From Reyranella sp. (lineage in GTDB: Bacteria > Pseudomonadota > Alphaproteobacteria > Reyranellales > Reyranellaceae): DNA of 64,000 nucleotides. Made by a program: the position numbers and the translations under genes. The notes beneath the pieces are model-generated. The model did no database searches. It was not told the origin of the DNA and was given only the letters and a program-made list of their open reading frames with translations. Positions within the stretch are counted from its first letter, which is position 1, and every line of letters starts with the position of its first letter. The DNA lies in the NCBI RefSeq assembly GCF_004297405.1, contig NZ_SCVC01000011.1, positions 186,001 to 250,000 of the forward strand. Direction: 5' to 3'. Positions 15,267 through 56,236 of the stretch are shown here, in pieces.

Positions 15267-15335
15267 AGCGGCGATCTGAACTGGCAGGGAGGGCGGCTCT
15301 TTCCTCGACTCCGGTCCGGCGGGCTGGTAGCACTA

Positions 15336-15350
15336 AGTTGTCAGACAACT
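15336..15350 (+). promoter_or_regulatory. GntR-type operator before the ABC importer
   Basis: AGTTGTC-A-GACAACT is a perfect 15-base palindrome 20 bp before the substrate-binding gene. Its core (TTGTCAGACAA) is identical to that between the GntR gene and the TauD gene at 54251-54263. The form fits operators of the FadR/FCD branch of GntR regulators. Confidence 0.6.
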
Positions 15351-15370: not shown

Positions 15371-16738
15371 ATGAGACGCGTTCTGGCGGGCGTTGTCGCT
15401 GCGGCGATTGCCCTCTCTGCCGTTCCGGGCTTCGCCCAGGAAAAACTCACCGTGTGGTGGGTCAAGGGTTTCTACAAGTCCGAGGACGAAGCGCTCTACG
15501 CCGCGATCAAGAAGTTCGAGCAGAAGACCGGCGTGAAGGTCGACCTGTCGCAATATGCCGTGCAGGACATGAACGCCAAGTCGGTGGCCGCGCTCGAATC
15601 CGGCACGCCGCCGGACGTCGCTTATTCCGACACCTACGACGTGCAGACCGCCGGCAAGTGGGCGTTCGACGGCAAGCTCGAGGACATCACCGACATCATC
15701 GAGCCGATGAAGGACCGCTTCGCTCCGGTCACCATCGAGACGGCCTACCTCTACAACGACAAGACCAAGAAGAAGGCCTATTACGGCTTCGCCCTGAAGC
15801 AGCAGACGCTGCACATCCAGTATTGGAAGGACATGCTGGGTCAGGCCGGCTTCAAGGAAAACGACATCCCCGGCACGTGGAAGGAGTACTGGTCCTTCTG
15901 GTGTGAAAAGGTTCAGCCGGCCGTGCGCAAGGCCACGGGGCAGCGGGTCTATGGCATCGGCAGCCCGATGGGCGTCGAGTCGACCGACTCCTTCCAGTCG
16001 TTCCTGAGCTGGGTCGATGCCTACAACGTCAAGCTGGTCGACGATTCGGGCAAGGTCCTGGTCGATGATCCCAAGGTGCGCCAGGGCCTGATCGCGGCAC
16101 TCAAGGATTATACCGACGTCTATGTGAAGGGCTGCACACCACCGTCGTCGACGACCTGGAAGGATCCCGACAACAATGTCGCCTTCCACAACCGCACGAC
16201 GGTGATGACGCACAACTACACGATCTCGATCGCCGCCAAGTGGCTGGACGATGCCAACAACGAGGCGCTCACGCCCGAGCAGCGTGCGGCTGGCCGCAAG
16301 GCCTACGACGAGCTGATTGCCACCTCGGGCTTCCCCAAGAAGCCGGATGGTTCGCCGATGGTCTATCGTACGGCCGTCAAGGTCGGCGTGATCTTCCAGG
16401 ACTCCAAGAACAAGGCGCGGGCGCGCGAGTTCCTGAAGTTCCTGTTCGAGGAGGATAACCTCCGCCCCTACGTCGAAGGCGCGCTGGGTCGCTGGTTCCC
16501 GGTTACCAAAGCCGGCCAGGAGAGCCCGTTCTGGCAGGCCGACCGCCATCGGAAGGCCGTCTACGACCAGTTCAAGGCAGGCACGCTGCCCTTTGAGTTC
16601 ACCAAGAACTACAAGTTCACCATTCTCAATAACGAGAATGTGTGGGCCAAGGCGATGAACCGCGTGGTCAGCGAGAAGGTGCCGGTCGAGAAGGCAGTCG
16701 ACGAGATGATCGCCCGCATCAAGGAAGTGACCAAGTAG
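15371..16738 (+). CDS. Sugar-type (CUT1) ABC transporter substrate-binding protein
   Basis: This 455-residue family 1 binding protein has a signal peptide cleaved near GFAQ. The mature part opens with KLTVWWVKGFYKSEDEAL and includes ALESGTPPDVAYSDTYDVQ, as in sugar, polyol and glycerol-phosphate binding proteins. Two permease genes follow, forming a transport operon (the first gap is 23 bp and the permease genes overlap). No ATPase gene is in the operon. A GntR-type operator lies just upstream. The substrate is probably a sugar or polyol but is not proven. Confidence 0.9.
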   Translation: MRRVLAGVVAAAIALSAVPGFAQEKLTVWWVKGFYKSEDEALYAAIKKFEQKTGVKVDLSQYAVQDMNAKSVAALESGTPPDVAYSDTYDVQTAGKWAFDGKLEDITDIIEPMKDRFAPVTIETAYLYNDKTKKKAYYGFALKQQTLHIQYWKDMLGQAGFKENDIPGTWKEYWSFWCEKVQPAVRKATGQRVYGIGSPMGVESTDSFQSFLSWVDAYNVKLVDDSGKVLVDDPKVRQGLIAALKDYTDVYVKGCTPPSSTTWKDPDNNVAFHNRTTVMTHNYTISIAAKWLDDANNEALTPEQRAAGRKAYDELIATSGFPKKPDGSPMVYRTAVKVGVIFQDSKNKARAREFLKFLFEEDNLRPYVEGALGRWFPVTKAGQESPFWQADRHRKAVYDQFKAGTLPFEFTKNYKFTILNNENVWAKAMNRVVSEKVPVEKAVDEMIARIKEVTK

Positions 16739-16761
16739 GCCCTGCCGCCCAGAGTAGGCGT

Positions 16762-17640
16762 ATGACAGCGTCCGTGATCGACACGCCGGCCCGCCGGGAG
16801 AAATCCCGATGGGCCGGCTTTGCGCTGTCCGAGCGGCAGACCTGGGGCCTGCTCTTCGTGGCGCCCTATATCGCAATCTTCGTGGGCTTCGTGCTGTTTC
16901 CGGTCGGCTACAGTTTCTGGCTGGCGCGCAGCCCGCGCCTCTATGTCGAGCTCGCCAACGATCCGATCTTCCTGCGCACGGTCATCAACACCTTTGTCTT
17001 CCTGGTGGTGGCGATCAACGTGAAGATGGCGGTCGCGTTGTTCCTGTCGGGTTTCTTCACGCATCCGCGCTGGTGGGTGAAGGTGCTGGCGGTGCTCTTC
17101 GTGCTGCCATGGGCGGTGCCGTCGATCCCGACCATTCTCTCGATACGCTTCATGCTCAATCCCGAATGGGGCGTCATCAACCAGCTCATCTTCAAGCTGA
17201 CTGCCGAGGACGGCCCCAACTGGCTGAACGATCCGACGCTCGCGCTGACACTGTCCATGCTGGTGCACATCTGGAAGTCGCTGCCGTTCTGGACCCTGAT
17301 CCTGCTGGCAGGCCGACTCGCGATCCCGCACGAACTCTACGAGGCTGCTGCGGTCGACGGCGCCGGCGCCTGGCATCGCTTCCGCTTCATCACCTGGCCG
17401 TCGATGAGCACGCTCTACGTCACCTGTACGCTGCTTTCGATGATCTTCACGGTGGGCGACTTCAACAGCGTCTACCTGCTGACGGGCGGAGGCCCGGCTG
17501 ATCTCACGCATGTGCTGGCCACACTTGGCATCCGCTATCTGCGGCTCGATCAGGTCGGCCTCGCCATGGCGTCGATCGTCTGCGCCCTGCCGTTGATCCT
17601 GCCGCTGGTCTATTTCATGATGAAGCGGCTGTCTCGATGA
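16762..17640 (+). CDS. ABC transporter permease, MalF-like
   Basis: This 292-residue inner-membrane permease has six predicted helices. The cytoplasmic coupling motif YEAAAVDGAGAWHRFRFITWP (near residue 194) docks on an ATPase. The start is the ATG at 16762, since the open frame before it lies inside the binding-protein gene. It overlaps the next permease by the 4 bases ATGA, which points to coupled translation. It is the MalF-like partner of the sugar importer. Confidence 0.9.
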   Translation: MTASVIDTPARREKSRWAGFALSERQTWGLLFVAPYIAIFVGFVLFPVGYSFWLARSPRLYVELANDPIFLRTVINTFVFLVVAINVKMAVALFLSGFFTHPRWWVKVLAVLFVLPWAVPSIPTILSIRFMLNPEWGVINQLIFKLTAEDGPNWLNDPTLALTLSMLVHIWKSLPFWTLILLAGRLAIPHELYEAAAVDGAGAWHRFRFITWPSMSTLYVTCTLLSMIFTVGDFNSVYLLTGGGPADLTHVLATLGIRYLRLDQVGLAMASIVCALPLILPLVYFMMKRLSR

Positions 17641-18491
17641 GCCCGCGCAAACTCCTGCGCAACATCGGCCTCGAAGCGGGATTGCTGCTGATCGGCATTC
17701 CGGTCCTGCTATGGACCTTGATCCCGATCTACCACATGTTCCTGTTCGCGATTTCGCCCAAGGACGCGGCCTTTTCGGGCCAGCTCTGGCCGACCAATCC
17801 GACCCTGCGCAACTTCGAGATGGTCTTCGCCCAGAAGCACCACTTCCTCTATCACTTCTGGCTGCAGATGTTTAACTCGCTGATCATCTCGATCGGCACC
17901 GCAGCCATCACGCTGTTCGTCGCGACGGCAGCGGCGTTTGCGATCAGCCGCCTGCGCATGAAGGGTGGTCGTCTGGTGATGAACCTGGCGCTCCTGACCT
18001 ACTTCATCCCGGCCGCCTTCCTGGCGGTGCCGATGTACAAGACCATGGGCATGTACGGGCTGCTCAACAACGACTGGGCGCTGGTGCTGGCGATGGCGAC
18101 CATCGCCTCGCCCTATGCCATCTGGATCCTGCGCCAGGCGTCGGACAAGCTGCCGGTCGAGCTCGACGAGGCCGCGATGATCGACGGCGCCTCGCCGTTC
18201 CAGCTCTTTCGCATGATCTATCTGCCGCTGATGGTGCCGTCGTTGATTGCCGTCGGCACCTATGCGTTGCTGCTGGCATGGAACGAGTATCTCTACGCGT
18301 TCCTATTGCTGTCGAAGGACACTGCGATCACCCTGCCGGTGGCGCTGGGCAACTTCCTCTCGGCCGACGATTCGCCTTGGGAACTGCTGATGACGGCGGG
18401 TTTCCTCTACGCCCTGCCGCCGGCCGCGATCTACTACGCCTTCCGCAAGTACATGTCCTCCGGCCTCACGGCCGGAGCGGTGAAGGGGTAG
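17637..18491 (+). CDS. ABC transporter permease, MalG-like
   Basis: This 284-residue permease has six helices and the coupling motif LDEAAMIDGASPFQLFRM (near residue 180). It is the second membrane subunit of the sugar-type importer. It overlaps the first permease gene by 4 bases. Its last 26 bases also form the end of the convergent MFS gene, with a hairpin in or beside the shared stretch. The ATPase that would normally follow is absent. Confidence 0.9.
   Translation: MSPRKLLRNIGLEAGLLLIGIPVLLWTLIPIYHMFLFAISPKDAAFSGQLWPTNPTLRNFEMVFAQKHHFLYHFWLQMFNSLIISIGTAAITLFVATAAAFAISRLRMKGGRLVMNLALLTYFIPAAFLAVPMYKTMGMYGLLNNDWALVLAMATIASPYAIWILRQASDKLPVELDEAAMIDGASPFQLFRMIYLPLMVPSLIAVGTYALLLAWNEYLYAFLLLSKDTAITLPVALGNFLSADDSPWELLMTAGFLYALPPAAIYYAFRKYMSSGLTAGAVKG
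18458..18477. terminator. Hairpin within overlapping convergent gene ends
   Basis: CTCCGGCC (18458-18465) and GGCCGGAG (18470-18477) pair around a 4-base loop. They lie inside the coding ends of the permease gene and partly of the MFS gene. Confidence 0.4.
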
Positions 18492-53515: not shown

Positions 53516-54217
53516 TCACTCCGCGCCCTGAAGCTCGGCGCGCACGGCCGCCGAGGAGTGCGCGAAGAGAAGCCGGGCGCCGGCTTCGGCTGCGCCTGCA
53601 TCGCCAGAGCTGATCGCACGCTCGATGGCTCGCCAATCCTTGGCGGCTTCCCGGCGTCGCTCAGCCTTGAGAAAGCTCGTGGCGCGTCCCCGGATCATGC
53701 GCCAGCTGCTGATCTCCGAAAGATGTTCGTACAGCGCCGGCAGTCGGCCATTGCCGCTCGCGGCGATGAGCAGAGTCTGAGCCGCGACGGAACGCTCCGA
53801 GAAGACCTGCGCGGGTGTCTCGGAATCGGCGGCAAGCCGCTCCATCTCGTCCGTGAGTTCCGCCAGCCTCTCGCGCGGCGCCGCGGGATCGAGCGCGCAA
53901 TTGCGTGCGGCGATCGCGAGCAGGGCCGCCCGGATCTCGAACAGGTGGAAGACATCGTCCTTCGCGAAGGGCGCCACGCGCGCGCCGAAGCGCGGGATCT
54001 GCTCGACGTAGCCGAGCTTGGCCAGGGCGATCAGGGCTTCGCGTACCGTGGCACGGCTCACGGCGTGCTGCTCCGCCAGGGCGAACTCCTTCAGCCGCTC
54101 ACCGGCCGGGAGGCGGCCGGACATGATGTCCTCGAGGATCCTCTCGGCCAGGAGCTCGGGGAGCGATTTGACGGCTTTGCCGAGGGGAATCGGCGCTTGT
54201 GGGGCGGTGGGGGACAC
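53516..54217 (-). CDS. GntR-family transcriptional regulator (FCD type)
   Basis: This 233-residue regulator has an N-terminal winged helix (LLAERILEDIMSGRLPAGER, then AEQHAVSRATVREALIAL) and an all-helical FCD effector domain starting near residue 95. It diverges from the TauD-like gene, and the gap carries a palindrome with the core TTGTCAGACAA, which it should bind. A longer version of the same core precedes the sugar-type ABC importer at 15.3 kb. Confidence 0.9.
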   Translation of the reverse strand: MSPTAPQAPIPLGKAVKSLPELLAERILEDIMSGRLPAGERLKEFALAEQHAVSRATVREALIALAKLGYVEQIPRFGARVAPFAKDDVFHLFEIRAALLAIAARNCALDPAAPRERLAELTDEMERLAADSETPAQVFSERSVAAQTLLIAASGNGRLPALYEHLSEISSWRMIRGRATSFLKAERRREAAKDWRAIERAISSGDAGAAEAGARLLFAHSSAAVRAELQGAE

Positions 54218-54250
54218 GGCGCGACCCTATCACAATTTGTCAGATTGATT

Positions 54251-54263
54251 ATTGTCAGACAAT
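54251..54263. promoter_or_regulatory. GntR operator between gntR and tauD-like genes
   Basis: ATTGTC-A-GACAAT is a perfect 13-base palindrome. A degenerate second copy (TTGTCAGATTG) lies about 14 bp to its left. The core matches the site at 15336-15350. Confidence 0.6.
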
Positions 54264-54302
54264 CGACAATCGGCAATAGTGCGGTAACTGAAGGAGGAAC
54301 GC

Positions 54303-55220
54303 ATGAGCACGCTTCAGGTGAAGCCGATCGGCTACGCGCTGGGGGCCGAAGTCACCGGTGTGGATTTGCGCCGGCCGCTCGAGCCGGCCTTGAAGGACGC
54401 CATCAACGACGCTTGGCTGCGCCACCTGGTGCTGGTGTTTCCAGGCCAGGACCTCTCCACGAACGAGCAGATCGCCTTCTCGCGATGCTTCGGCGATCTC
54501 GACAAGCACGAGTTCCAGCCGCGTTACACGCACCCCGACCATCGCGAGATCCTGCTGGTCACCAACAAGCTCATCGACGGCAAGCCCTCGGACACCCGCA
54601 ATACCGGCCGCAACTGGCACACGGACCTGACCTTCACGTCGCGGCCGGCAAAGGGCGCGCTGCTGCTGTGCCGGGAGAAACCGCCGGTGGGTGGCGACAC
54701 GATGTTCGCCAACATGTATCTCGCCTACGAGACGCTGAGCCAGCGCATGCGCGCCTTCATCGACGACATGGAGGCGATCCATGACGCGTCGCTGGTCAAG
54801 GGGCTGGAGCAGCGCGATCCGGAGAAGGTCGCGGATATGAAGCGCCGCAACCCGCCGGTGGCACACAAGGTCGTCCAGACCCACCCGGAGACCGGCCGCA
54901 GGTCCTTGCTGGTTGGTCAGCGCATCCGCGGCATCATTGGCCTGTCCGATGCGGAGAGTGCGGCACTCCTGGGCTTCCTGAACGAACACGCGGAGTCGCC
55001 GGAGTTCATCTATCGCCACCGCTGGACCGTCAACGATCTGGTGATGTGGGACAATCGATGCACGCAACACATCGCCTTGCCCGATTTCGACCAGCGCCAG
55101 CCGCGCCTGATGCTGCGCTGCTCGCTCCAGGGTGAGGTGACCGGCCGCGTCCTCGAACCGGCGGCTGCGCGCACTGACGATCGCGAAGCGTTGATGCAGA
55201 TGCTCGCGGCCGTGGCCTGA
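54303..55220 (+). CDS. TauD/TfdA-family 2-oxoglutarate dioxygenase
   Basis: This 305-residue Fe(II)/2-oxoglutarate oxygenase has the iron motif NWHTDLTF (HxD, near residue 104), a distal His in RCTQHIALPDFD and the 2-oxoglutarate-binding Arg that follows. The family oxidises taurine, aryloxyacetates or sulfate esters, and which of these applies is unclear. It starts after GAAGGAGG. It sits between a GntR gene and a Bug gene, which together form an uptake and oxidation module. Confidence 0.9.
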   Translation: MSTLQVKPIGYALGAEVTGVDLRRPLEPALKDAINDAWLRHLVLVFPGQDLSTNEQIAFSRCFGDLDKHEFQPRYTHPDHREILLVTNKLIDGKPSDTRNTGRNWHTDLTFTSRPAKGALLLCREKPPVGGDTMFANMYLAYETLSQRMRAFIDDMEAIHDASLVKGLEQRDPEKVADMKRRNPPVAHKVVQTHPETGRRSLLVGQRIRGIIGLSDAESAALLGFLNEHAESPEFIYRHRWTVNDLVMWDNRCTQHIALPDFDQRQPRLMLRCSLQGEVTGRVLEPAAARTDDREALMQMLAAVA

Positions 55221-55243: not shown

Positions 55244-56236
55244 ATGACGACGAGACGTGGGCTCACGCAGGGCCTGATGGCGACTGCCGCCGCTTTGGCC
55301 GGTGGCCGCTCAGCCTTCGCGACGCCCGACTATCCGACCAAGCAGGTCAAGGTGATCGCGCCGTTTGCGCCCGGTGCCGCCACCGACACCTGCGCGCGCA
55401 TCGTCGCGCAGCGGCTGGGCGAGCGGTGGGGCAAACCCGTCATCGTCGAGAACAAGGTTGGGGCGTCCGGGTCCATTGGCGCCGCGGCGGTCGCTCAAGC
55501 GGCTCCCGATGGCCACACGCTGTTGCTGGGCACGATCGGCACGAGCGCCACCAACGCGCATCTCATGCCCAACATGCCCTACGACACGTTGAACGACTTC
55601 ACGCCGATCAGCCTTTTCGCGACGGTCGCCATGCTCGTCGTCGTTCACCCCAGTCAGCCAATCCATTCGATTGCCGAGCTGATCGCCTATGCGCAGAAGA
55701 ATCCCGGCCGTCTCAACTGTGGCACCGCGGGCATCGGCTCATCGCCACATCTCGCGGCGCTGTTGTTCGAAAGCCTGGCCAAGGTGCGCTTCGAGCATGT
55801 GGCCTATGCCGGTGTTGCGCCCATGATCCCCGACATCCTGCAGAATCGCGTGAATGTCTCCTTGGGCGATGCGAGTTCCTTCCTGCCTCATGTCCGCAGC
55901 GGAGCGTTGAGAGCGATCGGCGTCACGACCGCGACACGCTTCGAAGGCCTTCCGGACGTGCCGACGGTCGCCGAAGCCGGGGTGAAAGGCTACGAGGCTT
56001 CGGCCTGGTACGGCGTGCTGGGGCCAGCCAAGTTGCTACCGGCCGTCGTCGCCAAACTCAGCGGTGATGTCGCGGCGATTGCACGGATGCCGGAGGTCAA
56101 ACAGCAGCTCGCGCCGCTTGCCGCCACGACCGTGGGCAGCACGTCCGACGAATTCGCAGTGTTCATCCGCGCCGAATACGATCGGTGGGGAAAGCTGATC
56201 CGCGACAGTGGCGTGCAGGTGAAGAAGCCAAGCTAG
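55244..56236 (+). CDS. Bug/TctC-family solute-binding protein (copy 4)
   Basis: This 330-residue Bug protein has a signal peptide cut near SAFATP, then KQVKVIAPFAPGAATDTCAR and VENKVGASGSIGAAAVAQ. It follows the TauD-like gene by 23 bp and so probably binds the substrate or a relative of the substrate of that oxygenase. No TctAB genes are near. It ends 3 bp before the convergent uracil-DNA glycosylase gene. Confidence 0.9.
   Translation: MTTRRGLTQGLMATAAALAGGRSAFATPDYPTKQVKVIAPFAPGAATDTCARIVAQRLGERWGKPVIVENKVGASGSIGAAAVAQAAPDGHTLLLGTIGTSATNAHLMPNMPYDTLNDFTPISLFATVAMLVVVHPSQPIHSIAELIAYAQKNPGRLNCGTAGIGSSPHLAALLFESLAKVRFEHVAYAGVAPMIPDILQNRVNVSLGDASSFLPHVRSGALRAIGVTTATRFEGLPDVPTVAEAGVKGYEASAWYGVLGPAKLLPAVVAKLSGDVAAIARMPEVKQQLAPLAATTVGSTSDEFAVFIRAEYDRWGKLIRDSGVQVKKPS

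Follow-up and report, generated by a model that had tools for sequence, protein, structure and literature searches.

Two identical operator cores in a Reyranella contig probably serve different GntR repressors, one of them the putative regulator of a GguR-like regulon that would include a CUT1-type importer

The window, i.e. the whole stretch of DNA that was analysed, comprises 64,000 nucleotides of a contig of Reyranella sp. and carries, at 15.4-18.5 kb on the plus strand, the genes for a periplasmic sugar-type solute-binding protein (Pfam SBP_bac_8, 15371-16738) and two ABC permeases of the BPD_transp_1 family. The first permease is MalF/UgpA-like (16642-17640, listed from an upstream GTG, with the true start probably further in) and the second MalG/UgpE-like (17637-18491). 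A sugar-type binding protein together with two MalF/MalG-type permeases characterises a CUT1-type ABC sugar importer, and the assignment to this class was made from the binding protein and the permeases only. A MalK/UgpC-type ATPase is common in operons of the CUT1 class, although some importers of the class are known to use a shared one from another locus. No such ATPase gene was found directly after the permeases, where the next gene codes for an MFS protein on the other strand; since orthologous operons of other bacteria include a UgpC-like ATPase, the importer of the window is likely to use a shared one. The importer is 98% identical to that of R. massiliensis 521. The AlphaFold model of the binding protein matched oligosaccharide-binding proteins with Z about 32, the matches being binders of neutral oligosaccharides and not of uronates; this predicted fold points only to sugar or oligosaccharide binders in general.

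Upstream of the binding-protein gene lies a perfect 15-base palindrome, AGTTGTCAGACAACT (15336-15350, no strand assigned), which ends 22 nt 5' of the ATG. A strict sigma-70 scan before the importer found no promoter, but alignment of relatives points to a promoter-like CTCGACTC-N13-TGGTAG on the plus strand (15304-15330), 5 nt upstream of the palindrome. This element is kept whether or not an importer locus has the palindrome, with TGATAA or TGATAT in relatives in place of TGGTAG.

The second locus of interest consists of the gene for an FCD-type GntR regulator on the minus strand (53516-54217, Pfam GntR and FCD) and, divergently on the plus strand, the genes for a TauD/TfdA-type 2-oxoglutarate dioxygenase (54303-55220, Pfam TauD) and, after tauD, a TctC/Bug-type periplasmic binding protein (55244-56236). 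As stated in the initial annotation, the gap between gntR and tauD holds a perfect 13-base palindrome, ATTGTCAGACAAT (54251-54263, again without strand). It is adjoined on the minus strand by a conserved extra half-box with a TG box, ATTGTCG (54264-54270), and flanked by a degenerate second box, TTGTCAGATTG in direct reading (54237-54247, no strand assigned), which is perhaps an auxiliary site. On the plus strand, the palindrome holds a -35-like TTGTCA on the tauD side, with AATAGT 17 nt further, and directly next to it lies a -10-like AATAAT on the gntR side. Hence the site would overlap both divergent promoters, and one bound dimer could repress both. The core between gntR and tauD is retained in relatives of the window GntR with as little as about 50% identity, so that 54251-54263 is probably the regulator's own operator.

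Direct reading of the sequence bore out that the two palindromes have an 11-base core, TTGTCAGACAA, in common, with exactly two copies in the window (15338-15348 and 54252-54262) and none elsewhere in it. Shuffled versions of the window contained 0.01 copies on average, and two copies were reached in none of 100 shuffles. Many unrelated copies in the genome, which the initial annotation had named as grounds against its proposal, were not found: the 6.46 Mb in 50 contigs contain four copies, compared to one of the reversed control, and across 65 genomes of the genus the core occurs 98 times versus 15 for the control. All four genomic copies precede uptake genes or FCD-type GntR genes. Besides the copy before the importer and the one between gntR and tauD, with the Bug gene behind tauD, the third (G000:C14:118793) has a TRAP dctP-dctQ-dctM operon on one side and a SulP permease gene on the other, and the fourth (G000:C22:11619) immediately precedes a further FCD-type GntR gene, hereafter L020. 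Both palindromes of the window are real operator-like sites. A looser pattern, TTGTNNNACAA, was tried and dropped; it showed no enrichment in the genome (21 places versus 68 for the reversed control), so that only the form TTGTCWGACAA is informative. Core copies inside longer perfect palindromes, GTCGTTGTCTGACAACGAC, were seen as a tandem pair at L221:2560 and 2581 (G052:C4) and at L208:2476 (G061:C312); no recognised transporter gene follows directly 3' of these copies, which possibly represent a different element.

The gene L020 is located on another contig (G000:C22:11654-12382) and has the core in its own promoter. Both regulators are of the FCD type: the window GntR scored 55.8 bits for GntR (cut-off 27) and 37.2 bits for FCD (cut-off 24.3), and L020 scored 75.3 and 84 bits, respectively, above the curated cut-offs. 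Neither passed an NCBIfam equivalog cut-off. Since the core is found in the promoters of both genes, at least two FCD regulators of this genome have it in front of their own gene. No exact core was found in the upstream sequences of the other 14 FCD genes detected in the genome, as expected with four copies genome-wide. In both cases, a conserved palindrome of the form TKGT-N3-ACMA, as in operators of the FadR subfamily, adjoins the regulator's own gene. Among 30 orthologues of L020, 21 have the exact core in the promoter and two more have it with one mismatch, and many of these promoters carry the same 15-mer as the importer. Five orthologues have lost the core, and the same five genomes lack an intact importer palindrome; these genomes belong to one clade and therefore count as one event. 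In the five orthologues (L141, L145, L146, L147 and L149 of genomes G027, G029, G008, G017 and G025, respectively), promoter and operator are gone and the regulator gene stands almost directly after a gene for an M20-type peptidase/amidase. This arrangement suggests that autoregulation of L020 disappeared in this clade together with the importer palindrome.

The bases flanking the core differ between the sites of the two regulators. All 17 importer sites combine a G at -6 with a C at +6, and C at +6 is also found in all 21 sites of L020 itself. In the window-GntR sites, position -6 is A or T and none of 16 has C at +6. On its 5' side, the core is accompanied by a TG half-box in 16/16 window-GntR sites, compared to 0/17 importer sites and 1/21 L020 sites. 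When scored with two simple weight matrices, from whose training the near relatives of the window had been left out, the importer site reached 25.5 bits in the class of L020 and 8.2 bits in that of the window GntR (17 bits apart), and the site at 54251 reached 8.0 and 28.1 bits, respectively (20 bits apart). The TRAP site on C14 scored 24.2 bits in the L020 class versus 11.7 bits in the other. A uronate-dehydrogenase site in Tardiphaga shares the TG box and for this reason scored slightly higher in the window-GntR class, and this exception means that the class model is not universal. From these flanks, it seems that the adjacent base and an additional half-box distinguish the operators of two paralogous GntR regulators with an identical 11-base core. 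The pair of sites is a clean example of why a shared operator core alone is poor ground for inferring co-regulation.

We compared the distribution of the importer palindrome with that of the two regulator genes among congeners, many of which are represented by draft MAGs, so that absences are soft. The exact 15-mer AGTTGTCWGACAACT, with W at the centre, was found in 17 of 43 importer promoters of the genus, with varying neighbouring bases; seven importer loci that were checked by hand did not have it. L020 is present in 17/17 genomes with the palindrome and in 12/26 without it (Fisher p 1.5e-4). These 12 genomes, in which L020 occurs and the palindrome before the importer does not, count against ownership of the site by L020. 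In genome G043 (78% complete), an importer-type palindrome lies at a contig edge and L020 was not detected. On the importer tree, there were four supported independent pairs for L020 and the palindrome, of which 2-3 agree and none is opposite, albeit with p 0.25 in an underpowered comparison.

The initial annotation had proposed that the window GntR may control the importer as well as the TauD/Bug module, which would point to related substrates of importer and oxygenase. Such control by one regulator would account for the identical 11-base core at two sites, with only four copies in the genome and both loci on one contig, and there is some co-occurrence, as the window GntR is present in 9/17 genomes with the importer palindrome versus 4/26 without it (Fisher p 0.016). 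However, the importer occurs much more widely than the window GntR, the palindrome persists in 8 of the 17 genomes without this regulator, in four genomes the window GntR and the importer occur together in the absence of the palindrome, and phylogenetically independent pairs on the importer tree show no association. In addition, flanks and half-box differ consistently between the two kinds of site, those of the importer palindrome matching the L020 operator. The proposed kinship of the substrates is not supported either: the genes that share the importer-class site encode a uronate dehydrogenase and TRAP or ABC transporters of the sugar-acid type and not TauD or Bug proteins. No TauD gene with such a site was found in the relatives examined, and a Bug-type gene was found once (L204, opposite a TRAP gene). 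We therefore regard control of both loci by the window GntR, with related substrates, as very improbable, and on the best reading of these sites the regulon of the importer would be unrelated to the TauD/Bug module.

Alternatively, both regulators might bind both sites, so that the importer would answer to both through cross-talk of paralogues. The central 11 bases, where the usual contacts of FadR-type regulators fall, are indeed identical, but the steady split at -6/+6 and in the half-box over 17 and 16 sites suggests discrimination, at least via the near flanks, and we consider cross-talk improbable. Finally, the importer palindrome could be a chance or non-regulatory feature such as a hairpin of the leader RNA, with which its location 22 nt before the start codon and the many importer promoters of the genus without it would agree. 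Against this stand the exact conservation of 15 bases in 17 genomes while neighbouring bases vary, the recurrence of the palindrome before an importer orthologue in another order and the excess of core copies over the control in the genus (98 versus 15), which leave hardly any room for such an origin.

The other genes associated with the L020-class sites point to uronates, sugar acids of the plant cell wall. The gene after L020 matches the uronate dehydrogenase structures 6mfh (2e-71) and 3rft (5e-66), and most of the other core copies in the genus precede TRAP dctP genes. The TRAP binding protein on C14 is closest to PDB 4nx1/4ovp, which we take to be uronate complexes. In genomes G038 and G053, the L020 operator is common to a divergent gene for a TRAP binding protein; the one of G038 is closest to 4n8y, 4mhf and 4n15, and 4MHF binds D-glucuronate and D-galacturonate (PMC7660916). 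By site and neighbourhood, L020 is thus tied to a uronate dehydrogenase and a uronate TRAP transporter, as in a GguR-like hexuronate/aldarate regulon. The arrangement on C14 (G000:C14:108800-128700; L032:9994), in which TRAP dctPQM and a divergent SulP permease gene have a common operator of the L020 class, occurs in about 18 Reyranella genomes.

Related arrangements were found in other orders. In Tardiphaga-type genomes, AAGTTGTCAGACAAGT stands before an importer orthologue of about 73-75% identity. Five such genomes have exactly three copies of the core, one each upstream of the importer, a uronate dehydrogenase gene and the gene of another sugar-binding protein. The dehydrogenase is 68-70% identical to the Reyranella protein and has an SGL lactonase gene opposite. 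Each of the five genomes has a relative of L020 with 50% identity, which adjoins a TRAP DctM gene in the one genome checked. The third Tardiphaga site (L334:647-2954) lies between genes for an IclR-type regulator and an SBP_bac_1 protein, the latter being a candidate for another uronate transporter. The importers of Bradyrhizobium BTAi1 and B. aeschynomenes have no palindrome, and these strains have no close relative of L020. In MAGs of Burkholderiales, the importer orthologue is located between genes for a galactarate/altronate-type dehydratase and an IlvD/EDD-type aldonate dehydratase, in a cluster that also holds a TRAP DctM gene and a UgpC-like ATPase gene directly behind the permeases. 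In Polaromonas sp. C04, the importer orthologue is immediately preceded by a GntR gene of the NanR/LldR kind, and the Polaromonas relative of L020 adjoins a gene for a keto-deoxy-galactarate dehydratase (4ur7, 6e-101). The contexts in Polaromonas, Burkholderiales and Tardiphaga match GguR regulons as published in outline (PMC5507952).

Taken together, we hold it to be quite likely, as far as sequence comparison can tell, that each of the two palindromes serves an FCD-type GntR repressor of its own and that L020 runs a GguR-like hexuronate/aldarate regulon of which the importer is a member. The site at 15336-15350 would then be an operator of L020 and that at 54251-54263 the auto-operator of the window GntR. 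Since the importer palindrome is located just 3' of the putative -10 element, a dimer bound there would sit over the transcription start and repress the operon; binding of a sugar acid to the FCD domain would release the repressor. Given this position and the usual action of FCD repressors, L020 most likely blocks the importer promoter until a sugar acid releases it. The shared sites and gene neighbourhoods would make the importer a member of one regulon with uronate dehydrogenase and TRAP transporters, and it most likely carries a uronate-bearing sugar or some other sugar acid; the fold match of its binding protein to binders of neutral oligosaccharides counts against this. More tentatively, and with slightly less than even confidence, we propose that the importer represents an uncharacterised CUT1 branch of Alpha- and Betaproteobacteria that carries uronate-bearing oligosaccharides or sugar acids and is controlled by a GguR-like repressor. 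If this is true, ABC systems serve the entry of uronates alongside TRAP systems, and both answer to the same control. The main reading assigns a likely regulator and substrate class to a widespread but poorly characterised ABC importer.

Among known systems, regulators of the FadR subfamily of GntR proteins (LldR, PdhR, GlcC and others) recognise a TKGT-N3-ACMA palindrome with weaker extra half-boxes 7-12 nt from the centre (PMC4494728). The sites described here resemble theirs in the form of the consensus and in the extra half-boxes by the palindrome, whereas LldR, PdhR and GlcC have other targets and ligands. A literature search with the core TTGTCAGACAA returned nothing relevant, and its reverse complement led to LhgR of Pseudomonas putida W619, a GntR-family regulator whose footprinted auto-operator, TTGTCTGACAA (PMC8206213), has the same 11-base core as both window sites. 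Unlike what is proposed here, LhgR senses L-2-hydroxyglutarate and controls lhgO (PMC8206213), and the likeness shows only that the core is common to regulators with different effectors. The suggestion of the initial annotation that the palindromes have the form of FCD-branch operators agrees with the FadR-subfamily consensus (PMC4494728), the LhgR site (PMC8206213) and the conservation beside relatives of the window GntR. The closest counterpart in gene content is the GguR regulon of hexuronate/aldarate use, as described for Halomonas in PMC5507952. In the outline given there, it likewise ties a GntR-family regulator to a uronate dehydrogenase and a UxuPQM-type TRAP transporter (PMC5507952); compared to it, the regulon of L020, which resembles it in sites and neighbourhoods, would include the CUT1 ABC importer as an additional member.
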